Shown: positions 1 to 36,955 of the stretch, piece by piece
Position numbering within the stretch: the stretch's first letter is position 1
Layout of the letters: each line of letters begins with the position of its first letter
Position numbers and translations under genes: made by a program
Source: Cyanobacteria bacterium FACHB-471
GTDB lineage: Bacteria; Cyanobacteriota; Cyanobacteriia; Elainellales; Elainellaceae
Direction: 5' to 3'
NCBI GenBank assembly: GCA_014695345.1
Contig: JACJOC010000013.1
Location: 1-64,000, forward strand
DNA length: 64,000 nucleotides
Notes under the pieces: model-generated
Seen by the model: only the letters and a program-made list of their open reading frames with translations
What the model was told of the DNA's origin: nothing
The model's database searches: none

Positions 1-786
1 TTCTCTCAAAGCAAAGCACGACTATGATGACCAAATTTGGTTTTGTCGAATTCGCTCCCTGGTTTGTAAGCTTTGTCCCATCAGCAATTAAGAAAGATTT
101 GTCAGGCAGTCAGCTTAGAGACTCCTGGAGTAGTTCAAAAGACTACTCGGGTAAGTTTGAACACAGTAGATTAACTTTCCAATATTCTAAAAATTCTAAT
201 CACATTCCTCTTGTCTAAATTTTGGCATGAACGGGAAAGAGTGTGATTAGCTTGGAAGGGCGATCGCGGCGGTGAAATCTTTGCTGTAGGGACTCGTGAA
301 ACTGTGGCTTCGAGACTTTTCGTACCTTTGCAGGACGTTGTCGCAACCGCAGAAAACAGTTTGGCTTGCACTTGAACCTGATTGCTGGCTTACTCAACTA
401 TGAATTGATATATAACTCTTGATTCATGCAGGAGCCGTTTGTCTCCACAAATTATTTGCGACACAACCCCCACGGCTGTTGCATCTTCCGCTTGCTCTCC
501 CATGTAGCTTTTTTACATCAAATGCCTCAAAAGCTTACGTTTCTGTTGCTAAAGTGCTGAGAAATAATCATAAAAATTGCCCCTGAACCTTAAAACCGTC
601 CTGCTGCAGGTGCAAATCAAAAACCCCCCAATAGGTAGAATTTCCTTCGATAAATGTGTAGTAAGATACACCGTAGTCCTAAAGTCGTGTGACCTAAGGA
701 TGTGTGAAGTTTTATGAGTGGCGGTAGTGAGGTCTAATTGCTGTCTCTTCACACTCAAAAGAGCAACCTTGAAGAAGGAGAACGAC
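1..786. other. No supported gene; leader region
   Basis: Short open frames occur here on both strands, but none has a recognisable motif, a convincing ribosome binding site or a plausible composition. The stretch holds one HIP1 site near 262. The last 100 bases are presumably the promoter and leader of the exported peptidoglycan-binding protein that follows. I see no tRNA or palindromic repeat in it. Confidence 0.4.
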
Positions 787-32448: not shown

Positions 32449-33129
32449 ATGTCACCAGCGACACAAACAAAGACGAATTCTCATTCTTTAGACTCTGCGA
32501 TCGCTCCCCGTTCAGTTCGTTTACTTCTAGCCTTATGGTTTCTAGGGGGCAAGGACGTTAATCAGGGAAAGGTTAGCGATCGGTTGAAAGTAGGCGGAAA
32601 GAAGAGTCCAGACTGTGATGAGCTTTATGCTCGTTTGGAGCGGGAAGAAGCGATTGAAGTTGCGAAGAAAAAGGTTTCTATTACAAACAAAGGAATTGAA
32701 TTACTGGGTCAAGGTTTGCAAAGTTCTGATCTTGCTATAGAAGGGACAATTGTGGGTTCCTGGATGGCAAAAGCTTTGCTGAAGTGGATTCAACAATCGG
32801 ATGTAAGTGTGAATGGCGCTGCAACTAATGGTAAAGTTGCCCATTCTGAAATTACTTCTCAAGAAGAATTTAAGCAGCTTGCATTAGAAACCTACGATCA
32901 CCTCAATCGTGACTACAACTTAGATAATTTGGTTCCTATCTATCGCATTCGTCGAGAAATTGGCGCTCAAGTTTCTCGCTCTCAGTTCAATGAATGGATG
33001 TTAGATCTGCAAGCTAATGACATTCTTCAACTGATTGGTGGAGAAATGCCAAGTCTTACCCCTGATATTGCCGAAGATTCGATCGAAACCAAACTCGGTG
33101 GAGTTCGCTACTACGTAAAGAAACTGTAA
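32449..33129 (+). CDS. Winged-helix protein of putative defence operon
   Basis: A 226-residue soluble protein, first gene of a three-gene operon. An N-terminal winged-helix-like segment (about residues 24-90: VRLLLALWFLGGKDVNQGKVSDRL, with ERLEREEAIEV and ITNKGIELL) looks like a DNA-binding fold. A second helix-turn-helix-like segment with a beta-wing lies at the C-terminus (about 155-226: VPIYRIRREIGAQVSRSQF followed by LDLQANDILQLIGGE). No catalytic motif is seen. The gap to the next gene is 61 bases. Proposed role, by inference: DNA recognition or regulation for the ATPase and nuclease encoded downstream. I do not recognise a named family. Confidence 0.65.
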   Translation: MSPATQTKTNSHSLDSAIAPRSVRLLLALWFLGGKDVNQGKVSDRLKVGGKKSPDCDELYARLEREEAIEVAKKKVSITNKGIELLGQGLQSSDLAIEGTIVGSWMAKALLKWIQQSDVSVNGAATNGKVAHSEITSQEEFKQLALETYDHLNRDYNLDNLVPIYRIRREIGAQVSRSQFNEWMLDLQANDILQLIGGEMPSLTPDIAEDSIETKLGGVRYYVKKL

Positions 33130-33190
33130 GACTCTAAATCTTCAGCCCATACCGTACAAACCTGTAAATTTTGCTCTTTGTGACGCGATC

Positions 33191-35137
33191 ATGAATTCTG
33201 CTGCCTCATCATTCTCCCCAATCGACCAGATTAACACCGTCCTCCGAAATCATAACCCTTTCGCTCAGGCTCCCATTCTCAGAGCTAATCACGTTTGGGG
33301 AAAAGGATTTCCTGATGTTGAATCTCTCAATGCTCATGCCTCTGACGCAGTCTTTAGAGCCTTAGATGAGATTCGTGCTGAACTTTATTCAGCAACCTCT
33401 ATCCTGATTACTGCTCAGGATGGAACGGGTAAGACCCATATCATTAGCCGCATTCGCCGTCGTCTTCAGAAGCAGGGCGGAGCTCTGTTCGTTTATGCCA
33501 ATAAGTTCGATGACCTCAACCGAGTGAAGCAAGGGTTTCAGCAAATCTTGGCTGATAGCTTAAGCAACATTGGTAGGCAGGAAATAACACAATGGCAGGA
33601 ATTAGCAACAGAAATGGCTAACGATGCCATCAGAACAGCTAACCTACAAGCTCAATTCTTGCCTGTTGAACATTTAGTCAAAAAGTTTGAGGATGCAGAC
33701 GAAGAACAAGCCAGGAAATGGATCGGTCAACTCACTAAAGCGTTTCGTAAGGCAAAGAATGTTAAAGATCCAGATATTGTTCGAGCTATCTTTTGGACTT
33801 TATCAGAAGAGCAGTCTTCCTATGCAGTGAATTGGTTAGGTGGGAAAGAGTTAGCTCAATACAAAGCAAATGAGCTAGGTTTACCGAACCAAAACCAATC
33901 TTTTGACGCAGTTCTGCATATCCTGTCTCTAATCAGCAACTACAACGAACTGGTTATTTGCTTTGATGAACTAGATCTACCAGATTGTAATGACGCTGGT
34001 TTATATAAATCCCAGGTTATTTCTGGCTTAGTGAAGGAGTTGTATGAGAACCTGCATCGGGGCGTTATTCTAACAGTAATGATGCCAGGTGTTTGGAATG
34101 AAAAAGTTAAGCAACTTCCACCCGGAGTCTGGAGTAGAGTTACAGCTTATGGAGATCCGCATGATTTGAGTTATATGGACGGTGACTCAGTTATTGAGCT
34201 AGTTACCCGTTTTCTCAAAGAATTCTATGACGAAAAAGGACTGACACCTCCTCATGCAATGTATCCGTTTGATGAGGATCAATTAAGAGCGCTTGGCAGA
34301 GAACGCCTAACCGCCAGGCGTGTTCTTTCATGGTGCAAAGATAACTGCAAACCTCCAGTTATTGATGAAGGTGAATCACCATCTGGTGATGACCCAGTTA
34401 TACCGGTTGAAGATCCAGTTGAGACAGCATTCAAAAACGAGATGGAGGAAGATCTCAGCAAGGATTTAGATGATAATGCCTTGATCTCGAATGCACTTTT
34501 CTTCAGTCTTCAAATGCTGGTGGGTCAAACAGTTGAGAAAGTCACTATTGAGGAGGTTACAACTGGAGTCAAGAAGCGTGGTGGTAGAGATCCATATCTT
34601 AACTTCAAGATTCTAGGTAAGGAGGAAGGAAGAGAGGTCAGTATTGGTGTAGCGGTTCTGCAATATGACGGTGGAGGAGGGCTAGGAGCAGGGTTCAGAA
34701 GGTTAGTTGATGAGGAGAAGGTTTTTGGATTGACTCGCGGTTGTTTAGTACGCTCTCAGAGTAAACCAATCAACCACTACTTCAGAAAAACTTATCTTAA
34801 TCCTTTGATCTATGAAAAGGGCGGAGAGTTTGTTGACTTGAAAGAGGAGGAGATAAGACCTTTGATTGCAATTCGATCTGTGCATCAAAAGCGGGAAGTA
34901 GACTACAAACTAAGTGAGGAGCAAATCTTCAATTTTATAGCTGAGAAGGGAGCTGAAAATTTGTTAGGAATTCATAACCCTCTCCTCAAAGAAATTCTGA
35001 GTGATCCATCGCATCAAGTACCTGTACTTGAAGATGAACCAGAAGCACAAGCTCAAGAATATACAGAGAAGGGTGATTCTGATGAGCTTGAGCCATCTGA
35101 AGAAATTGAATTAGCCGGATTAGCTGTTAATGGTTGA
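33191..35137 (+). CDS. P-loop ATPase of putative defence operon
   Basis: A 648-residue AAA/STAND-like ATPase. Walker A is AQDGTGKTH at residues 75-83 and Walker B LVICFDELDLPD at 254-265; an arginine-bearing SRVTAYGDP and a lid-type LTARRVLSWCKD (372-383) follow. The C-terminal 200 residues (about 450-648) form a separate beta-rich domain (GGRDPYLNFKILGKEEGREVS and a GGGGLGAGFRRL loop) whose function I cannot name; it may carry a degenerate nuclease-like fold. The end overlaps the next gene by eight bases, a strong sign of translational coupling. Probably a DNA-translocating or signalling ATPase controlling the nuclease; this is inference. Confidence 0.75.
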   Translation: MNSAASSFSPIDQINTVLRNHNPFAQAPILRANHVWGKGFPDVESLNAHASDAVFRALDEIRAELYSATSILITAQDGTGKTHIISRIRRRLQKQGGALFVYANKFDDLNRVKQGFQQILADSLSNIGRQEITQWQELATEMANDAIRTANLQAQFLPVEHLVKKFEDADEEQARKWIGQLTKAFRKAKNVKDPDIVRAIFWTLSEEQSSYAVNWLGGKELAQYKANELGLPNQNQSFDAVLHILSLISNYNELVICFDELDLPDCNDAGLYKSQVISGLVKELYENLHRGVILTVMMPGVWNEKVKQLPPGVWSRVTAYGDPHDLSYMDGDSVIELVTRFLKEFYDEKGLTPPHAMYPFDEDQLRALGRERLTARRVLSWCKDNCKPPVIDEGESPSGDDPVIPVEDPVETAFKNEMEEDLSKDLDDNALISNALFFSLQMLVGQTVEKVTIEEVTTGVKKRGGRDPYLNFKILGKEEGREVSIGVAVLQYDGGGGLGAGFRRLVDEEKVFGLTRGCLVRSQSKPINHYFRKTYLNPLIYEKGGEFVDLKEEEIRPLIAIRSVHQKREVDYKLSEEQIFNFIAEKGAENLLGIHNPLLKEILSDPSHQVPVLEDEPEAQAQEYTEKGDSDELEPSEEIELAGLAVNG

Positions 35138-36656
35138 GCCAGTTCTTATCGATAAAGTGTTGTATCTACCCGCTCCAGATGCTGAAGGTTTAGCTAAGGG
35201 GTGGGTAGTTGCAGCCGTTCCTAAAGTTTCAATCCAAGAGGGATGGTCTTTTCTTGTCTGTCCTAGTGATACTTCTATTAATCCACTCCCGATTGAAAGA
35301 CAGTATCATCCCAACTTTCTATCTACTGCCAAATCTGCATTAATTCAGTTAAAAGATTCAACAGTAAAGGTCAATTTTTGGGCAAAGTGCGAGTTTTGTA
35401 CACTACTTTACGAAGTTGAGCAGTTGAATGTTCTTTCCCAACTAACTAACTGGACACCAATAGCTCTAAAAACTGCGTTAGAGCAACGGCAGCATCTTTT
35501 TCTGACCTGTTTAAGAATCTATCATCTGCCTGAACCAATTGAAGTATCGACGGATTCTCTTAATCCAACAAAAACTGGAAAATTTGTAAGTTTGTCTTCA
35601 TTAGGACTACCTGAACATATTTCTATCCCAATGAAGGTGAACACTTCGTTACCTGTAATAAGTGATGTTGTTTTTAACCAACGTAAGCTACAACTAGCAG
35701 AACGCAAGCTACCTCTTTATCCTCAATTAGAGAAATTGCATGATTTAGTTGCTCAAATGGCTACAACTGATTCAAAGGCTAAACAGCTTGAACAAGATAT
35801 CAAGGTGTTTTTGGGTTGGTCTACTTATGAAAGAACATCTCAAGCTGATCCTGATACATCTTGGATTAAGTTAATTGCTGCTGTAGGAAATTCAAGCGAT
35901 GGAGATTTGTTTGAAAAATTAGTGCGAAGAAGTTTTATGAAATTGGGCTTTAAAAACTCTAACTTGAATCCTCAAGCAAGTCTTGACCCTAACAGTTGTG
36001 GAGGAGCAGGAGGTTTAGACTTTTACTGCGAAGAACCCTATCCAGTAGTTGGAGAGTGTAAGGCAACAAAAACTGATGTTGTTCCTGATAGTACACCAGC
36101 ACAATTGGTCAAGCTAGGACTTAAACATCTCCAGAAGCAATATGAAAACTGTATCAAGGTCATCATGGCTGCTGGCGCATTGAACTCGCATGCTCAAAAA
36201 ACTGCTATTGGAAATAAAATGAATGTAATTCGCCCCGAAACACTACAAAGGCTAGTCGAATTAAAAGCAAAATACGATGGCTCTGTTAATTTATTGGATT
36301 TAAAGTCCTACTTGGAAGCAGATCCATTTGGAGAGGATGCGGATGTAAAGTTAAATGATTTCGTCAATCAAGTTTTGAGAGATATTCGGGTGCGATCACA
36401 TATCATTAAAGCTATTGAACAACTTACTGAAACTGAGCCAGATAGAAAACAGTTTGAAGTTGTAGAAATTCGCACCCAATACAATGCTTCCTTTGCAAGA
36501 CTCGATGGTGGTGTTTTAGATAACCAGACAGTTCATGAAATACTCATAGAACTGTCATCACCTTTGACTGGGTATTTAGGACGACTTAAAACAACTAGTC
36601 TGCAAAGCGATCGCTTCTACTTCCTCCGTCACATGCCTGAAATAGTAGAGCAGTAA
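35130..36656 (+). CDS. PD-(D/E)XK nuclease with DUF1802-like N-terminus
   Basis: A 508-residue protein, last of the three-gene operon. Residues 1-140 resemble DUF1802 (WSFLVCPSDTSINPLPIER and LRIYHLPEPIEV). Residues about 260-380 form a restriction-endonuclease-like fold: FEKLVRRSFMKLGF, then D297 in GGLDFYCEE, E309 and K311 in VVGECKATK, spacing D-11-E-x-K as in Mrr and related nucleases. VIRPETLQRLVEL adds to the fold. The catalytic triad is complete, so the protein is likely an active DNA nuclease. It overlaps the ATPase gene by eight bases. A defence system of this gene order is not one I can name. Confidence 0.75.
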   Translation: MVEPVLIDKVLYLPAPDAEGLAKGWVVAAVPKVSIQEGWSFLVCPSDTSINPLPIERQYHPNFLSTAKSALIQLKDSTVKVNFWAKCEFCTLLYEVEQLNVLSQLTNWTPIALKTALEQRQHLFLTCLRIYHLPEPIEVSTDSLNPTKTGKFVSLSSLGLPEHISIPMKVNTSLPVISDVVFNQRKLQLAERKLPLYPQLEKLHDLVAQMATTDSKAKQLEQDIKVFLGWSTYERTSQADPDTSWIKLIAAVGNSSDGDLFEKLVRRSFMKLGFKNSNLNPQASLDPNSCGGAGGLDFYCEEPYPVVGECKATKTDVVPDSTPAQLVKLGLKHLQKQYENCIKVIMAAGALNSHAQKTAIGNKMNVIRPETLQRLVELKAKYDGSVNLLDLKSYLEADPFGEDADVKLNDFVNQVLRDIRVRSHIIKAIEQLTETEPDRKQFEVVEIRTQYNASFARLDGGVLDNQTVHEILIELSSPLTGYLGRLKTTSLQSDRFYFLRHMPEIVEQ

Positions 36657-36718: not shown

Positions 36719-36955
36719 TTAATCGTTTTGATTTTCTGGAAACCCAAATTGATCCGGCAGTTCGTTTGACGTAATTTGCAGAACATCAAGTAATTTCTTG
36801 TATTGAGCAGGCGTAAGCCTCGGTACTGCTCGACCTGCTTCCCAGTTTCTTACTGTCGTTTCCGTTACACCTAGCGCATCTGCCAACTGTTTTTGAGTCA
36901 GAAATCGTTGAACTCTGAGTCTCATTAATGGCGATCGATCGGATTTGCTAGTCAT
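36719..36955 (-). CDS. XRE-family helix-turn-helix regulator
   Basis: A 78-residue DNA-binding protein made almost only of a helix-turn-helix: LMRLRVQRFLTQKQLADALGVTETTVRNWEAGR followed by PRLTPAQYKKLLDVL. The TETTVRNWEAGR block is the recognition helix of the Cro/C1 (XRE) type. Its gene is convergent with the nuclease gene, 62 bases away. It may control the defence-like operon or the Rpn genes, as small XRE regulators often do, but no operator was identified. Confidence 0.75.
   Translation of the reverse strand: MTSKSDRSPLMRLRVQRFLTQKQLADALGVTETTVRNWEAGRAVPRLTPAQYKKLLDVLQITSNELPDQFGFPENQND

Follow-up and report, generated by a model that had tools for sequence, protein, structure and literature searches.

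Related systems

McrBC consists of an AAA+ motor and a PD-(D/E)XK nuclease. The EVE-HNH protein VcaM4I is a type IV (modification-dependent) restriction enzyme (PMC7897488). The description closest to the operon considered here was published in NAR in 2024 (PMC10853773). One sentence of that paper predicts operons in which Orc/Cdc6, REase-ASCH and DndG-like triple wHTH proteins are encoded together; it is a prediction without experiments, and the hosts are unnamed in the main text. The passage concerned also describes HerA/FtsK-linked relatives in which the AAA+ core is followed by an inactive REase domain and then by a C-terminal wHTH, as well as operons in which HerA/FtsK capture systems occur with Orc/Cdc6.

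The locus described here consists of three genes, A, B and C (Table 1), in a stretch of 64,000 nucleotides that was analysed as a whole and is called the window. Going by the passage in PMC10853773, the trio fits the same kind of operon in the respects compared; the match is one of description. The original prediction had presented the system as a candidate undescribed one, which does not hold because the operon type had already been predicted in that paper. The exchange of the nuclease module, the two nuclease types and the toxin-antitoxin arrays discussed below are absent from the account given in that passage.

The trio shares some properties with each of the other systems. Like McrBC it has an AAA+ ATPase and a PD-(D/E)XK nuclease, but no match to the McrB GTPase family is among those found for B, and the putative reader domain is on the nuclease C and not on the motor. 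Like type IV enzymes such as VcaM4I, C appears to join a PUA-superfamily-like sensor domain to a nuclease; unlike them, the trio adds an Orc/Cdc6-like ATPase and a probable wHTH protein. The likeness to DndFGH and SspFGH lies in a paralogous operon, A'-B'-C', and not in the trio. The paralogous operon has a wHTH protein, an ATPase and an exonuclease-PDDEXK-FtsK protein, whereas HerA/FtsK was not found in A, B or C and the nuclease of the trio is fused to an ASCH-like domain.

The second gene pair, A'B', is about 25% identical to B and is often followed by C', which combines PDDEXK with FtsK; a 3'-5' exonuclease at its N-terminus is common. The FtsK part of C' matches SspH (E 2.1e-67) and MADS mad8, and operons of this type are among those described in the passage of PMC10853773. 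Loci with A'-B'-C' were found at L124, L130-L132, L135, L138-L142 and L148, in several cases with a ParA-like gene close by. The window's own genome has an A'B' pair near a contig end (L128, 970-3855, contig C109). No full C' was found in this genome, and the next ORF downstream of the pair (108-638, minus strand) is nuclease-like by eye, with the motif GKRIEVKSS.

Properties of the three genes

All three genes lie on the plus strand and the reading frames of B and C share 8 bp, as the original prediction had stated. The trio is single-copy in its own genome. The gene that directly follows C lies on the minus strand (36722-36955) and encodes a small protein of the HTH_3 (XRE) type (E 2.2e-10).

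Table 1. Positions of the three genes and their features in the window
Feature	Position	Strand	Description	Basis
Gene A	32449..33129	+	226 aa; probable multi-winged-helix DNA-binding protein	ORF; first gene in 62 intact trios
Gene B	33191..35137	+	648 aa; AAA+ ATPase, ORC/Cdc6 type	ORF, AAA_16 match, model
Walker A of B	33413..33436	+	AQDGTGKT, residues 75-82	G78, G80, K81 invariant in 58 sequences
Walker B of B	33950..33976	+	LVICFDELD, residues 254-262	C257, F258, D259 invariant in 58 sequences
C-terminal alpha/beta domain of B	34475..34900	+	Residues about 429-570	Model secondary structure alpha-beta-beta-beta-alpha-beta, conservation
Gene C	35130..36656	+	508 aa; ASCH-like domain and PD-(D/E)XK nuclease	ORF, DUF1802 match, model
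C1	35160..35687	+	DUF1802 domain, residues 11-186; predicted ASCH/PUA-like fold	DUF1802 match, Foldseek
C2	35862..36653	+	Exchangeable nuclease module, residues 245-508; core C2a 245-385, type I here	Breakpoints, block structure
Putative catalytic residues of C	36018..36062	+	D297 (36018-36020), E309 (36054-36056), K311 (36060-36062); PD-(D/E)XK	Invariant in 59 sequences
C-terminal tail of C	36537..36629	+	Conserved, residues 470-500	Holds GCGATCGC at 36607-36614

A conserved gene A is present at the locus, and its product had been taken for a winged-helix protein. The existence of the conserved gene stands, while the fold is less certain: no Pfam winged-helix model matches A, and a profile of A finds winged-helix folds at noise level (RIO2 N-terminus, E 0.09; eS10, E 0.075). 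Judged from sequence, A is a probable multi-winged-helix DNA-binding protein, and its counterpart in the operon predicted in the sentence of PMC10853773 would be the DndG-like protein with three wHTH domains.

The assignment of B as a P-loop ATPase was correct, and the key residues of both Walker motifs are invariant. B matches AAA_16 (E 3.8e-8), and the best PDB fold matches of its model (mean pLDDT 86) include archaeal Cdc6/Orc (1fnn, 1w5s and 2qby; E 4-7e-4, prob 1.0). An arginine in the position of the sensor-2 region, R376, is also invariant. In these respects B resembles the Orc/Cdc6-type AAA+ ATPase of the operon predicted in PMC10853773. The third strand of the C-terminal alpha/beta domain is without E-x-K, and Foldseek gave neither a restriction-enzyme match nor any other fold match for this domain. 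Its order of helices and strands fits the inactive REase domain of the HerA/FtsK-linked relatives described in that passage, and in this light it is probably an inactive REase-like domain.

The N-terminus of C matches DUF1802 well above the family cut-off (E 8.2e-19; 68.5 bits, cut-off 25), in agreement with the resemblance seen earlier. ASCH structures match this part of the AlphaFold2 model (mean pLDDT 91) in Foldseek searches of the PDB with prob 0.98-1.00, TM 0.56-0.64 by target and E 0.017 to 0.29. These include ZmASCH (5y6b/5y6c; prob 1.00, TM 0.59 by target) and TTHA0113 (2dp9; prob 0.98, TM 0.64 by target), with AF2351 and the TRIP4 ASCH domain among the further matches. Longer stretches of C match Nt.BspD6I, a nicking endonuclease, and AF1548, which is Mrr-like. 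None of the fold matches of C has an E value better than 0.009, and the fold is therefore assigned from their consistency and not from a single strong match. That consistency suggests that DUF1802 adopts an ASCH/PUA-like fold, which is the fold family of modified-base readers. Standalone DUF1802 proteins of ~190-250 aa, which have the ASCH-like domain in common with C, are widespread in cyanobacteria (L149-L160 and many others).

The nuclease part of C is confidently modelled, and the PD-(D/E)XK site that had been recognized in the sequence is intact. D297 stands at the start of a strand (298-300), and the following strand (306-311) contains E309 and K311; a helix with the invariant E262 (258-272) precedes the strands and another (321-334) follows them, which is the usual PD-(D/E)XK arrangement. 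C carries an invariant D-ExK site and an ASCH-like domain in one protein, which corresponds to the REase-ASCH protein in the predicted operon of PMC10853773. A profile search for solved-structure relatives of A, B and C gave none that was significant. When the trio was compared with the models of PADLOC-DB 2.0.0, a check proposed with the original prediction, A and C had no match, and B matched ATPase models weakly, at E 0.002 and above.

Predicted function

We consider it probable, although well short of certain, that A-B-C is a chromosomal, ATP-dependent, type IV-like restriction defence complex that takes part in an arms race. A would bind DNA via its winged helices and B, with its probably inactive nuclease-like domain, would assemble on the DNA in an ATP-dependent manner. 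C would then be recruited into the complex. Through its ASCH-like domain C would detect some property of the target, in the simplest case a modified base, and with its PD-(D/E)XK domain it would cut that target, with an anti-phage effect. The observed swapping of the nuclease module between lineages, set against a core of A, B and C1 that evolves together, is what would be expected from diversifying selection on the module by the counter-measures of phages or by the choice of target. Support comes from the co-occurrence of the genes, the invariant active site, the folds, the block structure described below, the FtsK/SspH paralogue and the earlier prediction, in one sentence, in PMC10853773. 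Points against this reading are the PADLOC results, the E values of the C fold matches and the surroundings of the trio.

Distribution and surroundings

Strong matches to C were found in about 75 of the 390 cyanobacterial genomes of the class, or roughly a fifth, and strong matches to B (by our own count, at E of at most about 1e-35) in 73. All but one of these 73 genomes also have a strong C; the remaining genome, G201, has B without C. C occurs with B missing or partial in three genomes, with C or a leftover B fragment near a contig end in two. At 62 loci all the genes are intact and occur in the order A-B-C on one strand, with short or overlapping junctions. The three genes are co-conserved across cyanobacteria, a point that the original prediction had proposed to check.

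Several incomplete forms were also observed. B is broken into two ORFs at L053, L064, L109, L113, L114 and L115, which are either broken trios or assembly errors. Isolated C-terminal fragments of C without a full C are found at L161-L172, with orphan tails in G538, G534, G085 and G135, and may be what is left of lost trios. At L123, L125 and L127 there are B-like ATPases of about 1,060-1,090 aa that have neither A nor C next to them.

Among the 386 genomes of the phylum that were searched, full-length C was found in the class only; four genomes of other classes gave matches, to standalone DUF1802 proteins only. Beyond cyanobacteria the analysis covered collections of plasmids, phages and viral contigs and one pattern-based scan, all six matches of which were cyanobacterial. 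No relatives of the trio were found in plasmids (P0002, P0003), phages (P0002) or viral contigs, and the idea that it is carried on mobile elements was dropped for this reason. For a mobile defence system such an absence is out of the ordinary, and it counts against restriction defence. So do the neighbours of the trio: clustering of the adjoining genes from about 80 loci gave ordinary genes, which, judged by reading their sequences, include agmatine deiminase, MutM and malate dehydrogenase. The proposed defence-island setting was rejected since no known defence genes recur beside the trio.

A chromosomal location in ordinary neighbourhoods that are conserved within lineages, the lack of plasmid or phage copies and the wide occurrence of standalone DUF1802 in cyanobacteria would also suit a role in genome maintenance or repair, in which the Orc/Cdc6-like loader brings the nuclease to damaged or modified DNA. 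We regard such a role as quite unlikely. The trio is present in only the fifth of genomes given above, several copies are broken, and free exchange of a catalytic module is unexpected for housekeeping repair.

The composition of the DNA was also considered. The GC contents of A, B and C are 42.6, 42.8 and 38.8%, respectively, compared with 47.2% in the window. The HIP1 sequence, GCGATCGC, occurs 86 times in the window (1-64000), where 0.8 copies are expected from shuffles; an excess of HIP1 is usual in cyanobacteria. Its absence between about 32,500 and 36,605 had been taken as a signal. The longest HIP1-free stretch of the window does span the trio (32497-36607, 4,110 bp), but a gap of this length or longer arose in 26% of trials in which 86 sites were placed randomly (P about 0.26), and it was discarded as a sign of recent transfer.

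Exchange of the nuclease module

The nuclease module of C has two allelic types and reassorts almost freely between lineages, and also between families, against the A-B-ASCH core. This was determined from pairwise identities of nine segments in the 62 intact trios. The C-terminal half of A, B and C1 intercorrelate at 0.60-0.79, whereas the correlation of C2a with these segments is 0.05-0.18. The N-terminal half of A evolves apart from the C-terminal half that co-evolves with B and C1; it correlates with the tail of C (0.44) more than either does with the core. C2a sequences fall into two main types, and the type switches at least 16 times on the core tree of the 62 loci, compared with 20.4 +/- 2.0 for shuffled labels. 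Only 4 of 300 label shuffles were as low, which indicates that the C2a type is inherited, but to a small extent.

In AU tests the C2a data reject the grouping of the window with L049 (p 1.7e-5) and of L071, L074 and L075 (7.5e-7), and the core data reject L063 with L118 (1.3e-4) and L068 with L077 (9.5e-29); the groups were picked after the identities had been seen, so these p-values are optimistic. The same mosaics are seen in the DNA, with sharp breakpoints at the C1/C2 border. For L068 and L077, both flanks are mostly 80-97% identical, A is 75-93%, B and C1 are 46-74% and C2 is 64-94%. For L063 and L118, the upstream flank is 87-99%, B and C1 are near 50% and C2 is 77-93%. L071 is similar to both L075 and L074 in A-B-C1, with C2 at 52-67%; L071 and L074 have nearly identical cores and different nuclease types. 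The co-exchange of B and C1 suggests that C1 may bind B.

L049 comes from a sister species in the window's own genus. Its A and B are 89% identical to those of the window, its C2 is 43% identical and the flanks are unrelated. Of the earlier proposal of horizontal acquisition, movement of the locus is upheld by this comparison; the HIP1 gap that had been offered as its evidence is not. The module exchange and the patchy presence of the trio support the view that the locus evolves like a conflict system.

Toxin-antitoxin arrays behind gene C

At 12 loci of the genus g44, translation of the DNA 3' of C shows further pieces of the C-terminus of C, 29 in all and every one on the same strand. At the DNA level they are repeats of about 70-100 bp of the 3' end of C, with six matches in 3.7 kb in the case of G179. 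The ~70-bp direct repeats each usually have GCGATCGC in the middle. The array loci include L093 (12312-16044), L075, L085, L086, L071, L074 and L111. Shorter repeats of the C end occur outside g44 in five loci (L054, L056, L067, L084 and L104), and none was found in the window. Across ten g44 genomes the trio loci account for nearly all repeat matches, although with 40 candidates scored per genome dispersed copies could be missed. Clusters where no trio was found lie at L173 (G231, contig C88) and at L187 (G155, contig C78), which might reflect loss of the trio or movement of the array; G155 has a second cluster.

The 69 ORFs between the g44 repeats include DUF433 (9), DUF5615 (7), PIN (7), DUF4258 (5) and YoeB, PIN_3, ParE and MqsA (3 each). 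Upstream of A at the same loci, 60 ORFs include PIN, PemK, DUF2281 and DUF2442 (1 each). Toxin-antitoxin genes are thus enriched behind C in g44 relative to its own upstream control. A general enrichment was not retained, since outside g44 the downstream and upstream sets are not clearly different.

Homologous recombination between the repeats would be the simplest mechanism for the formation of the arrays. Two other ideas were rejected. The reading of the 70-bp repeat as a folded attC-like site found no support, its stability being no better than that of shuffles (z -0.14), and the downstream fragments are not silent nuclease cassettes, as they hold the last part of C only and have toxin-antitoxin genes in between. 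In Microcystis a toxin-antitoxin pair lies behind MaOC1 between 152-bp direct repeats (PMC7935541). That arrangement is a different one because the repeats are noncoding and start 14 bp past the stop codon of MaOC1. As far as was found in the open-licence literature searched, the exchange of the nuclease module and the arrays of C ends and toxin-antitoxin genes are undescribed and look new.

A further idea is that the 3' half of C serves specifically for exchange. Families of cyanobacteria would swap the two-type nuclease module there while the sensor-ATPase core stays conserved, and the repeated 3' end would act as a recombination site that collects toxin-antitoxin cassettes, giving an integron-like array without an integron integrase that is possibly nuclease-driven. 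We view this as a tentative and rather doubtful proposal.

The toxin-antitoxin genes behind C would be functionally related neighbours if the trio acted by abortive infection, with B sensing invasion and licensing C to cut host DNA so that infected cells die. An AAA+/STAND-type ATPase with a nuclease effector would suit such a role, and B weakly matches an NCBIfam antiphage ATPase (1.1e-6, far under the family cut-off). Self-targeting of this kind is nevertheless unlikely, given that the DNA-reader-like domain in C and the DNA-binding A suit direct restriction better and that the cassette arrays are mainly in one genus.

A selfish, self-editing nuclease was also considered. In alleles that do not have its type, C would cut its own 3' half or DNA close to it, and repair would copy the module in a homing-like manner, so that both the exchange and the arrays would be products of the nuclease. 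The focus of the exchange on C2, the two discrete nuclease types and the repetition of the C 3' end behind the gene, in g44 at this locus only among the scored candidates, point in this direction. Nevertheless, the C-terminal half of A, B and C1 are also exchanged as a block (L068/L077 and L063/L118), ordinary homologous recombination with selection explains both exchanges, and there is no known recognition site, which makes self-editing highly unlikely.

Significance

The operon type had been predicted but never tested in the open-licence literature searched, and the present survey supplies its cyanobacterial distribution, a set of intact candidates and residues for mutation. DUF1802, a family without an assigned function, is now tied to a predicted ASCH/PUA-like fold and an invariant nuclease site. 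The toxin-antitoxin arrays would show how such genes pile up beside a defence locus. Pairs of loci with a 90-95% identical core and differing nuclease types provide a natural experiment on what the nuclease module specifies.
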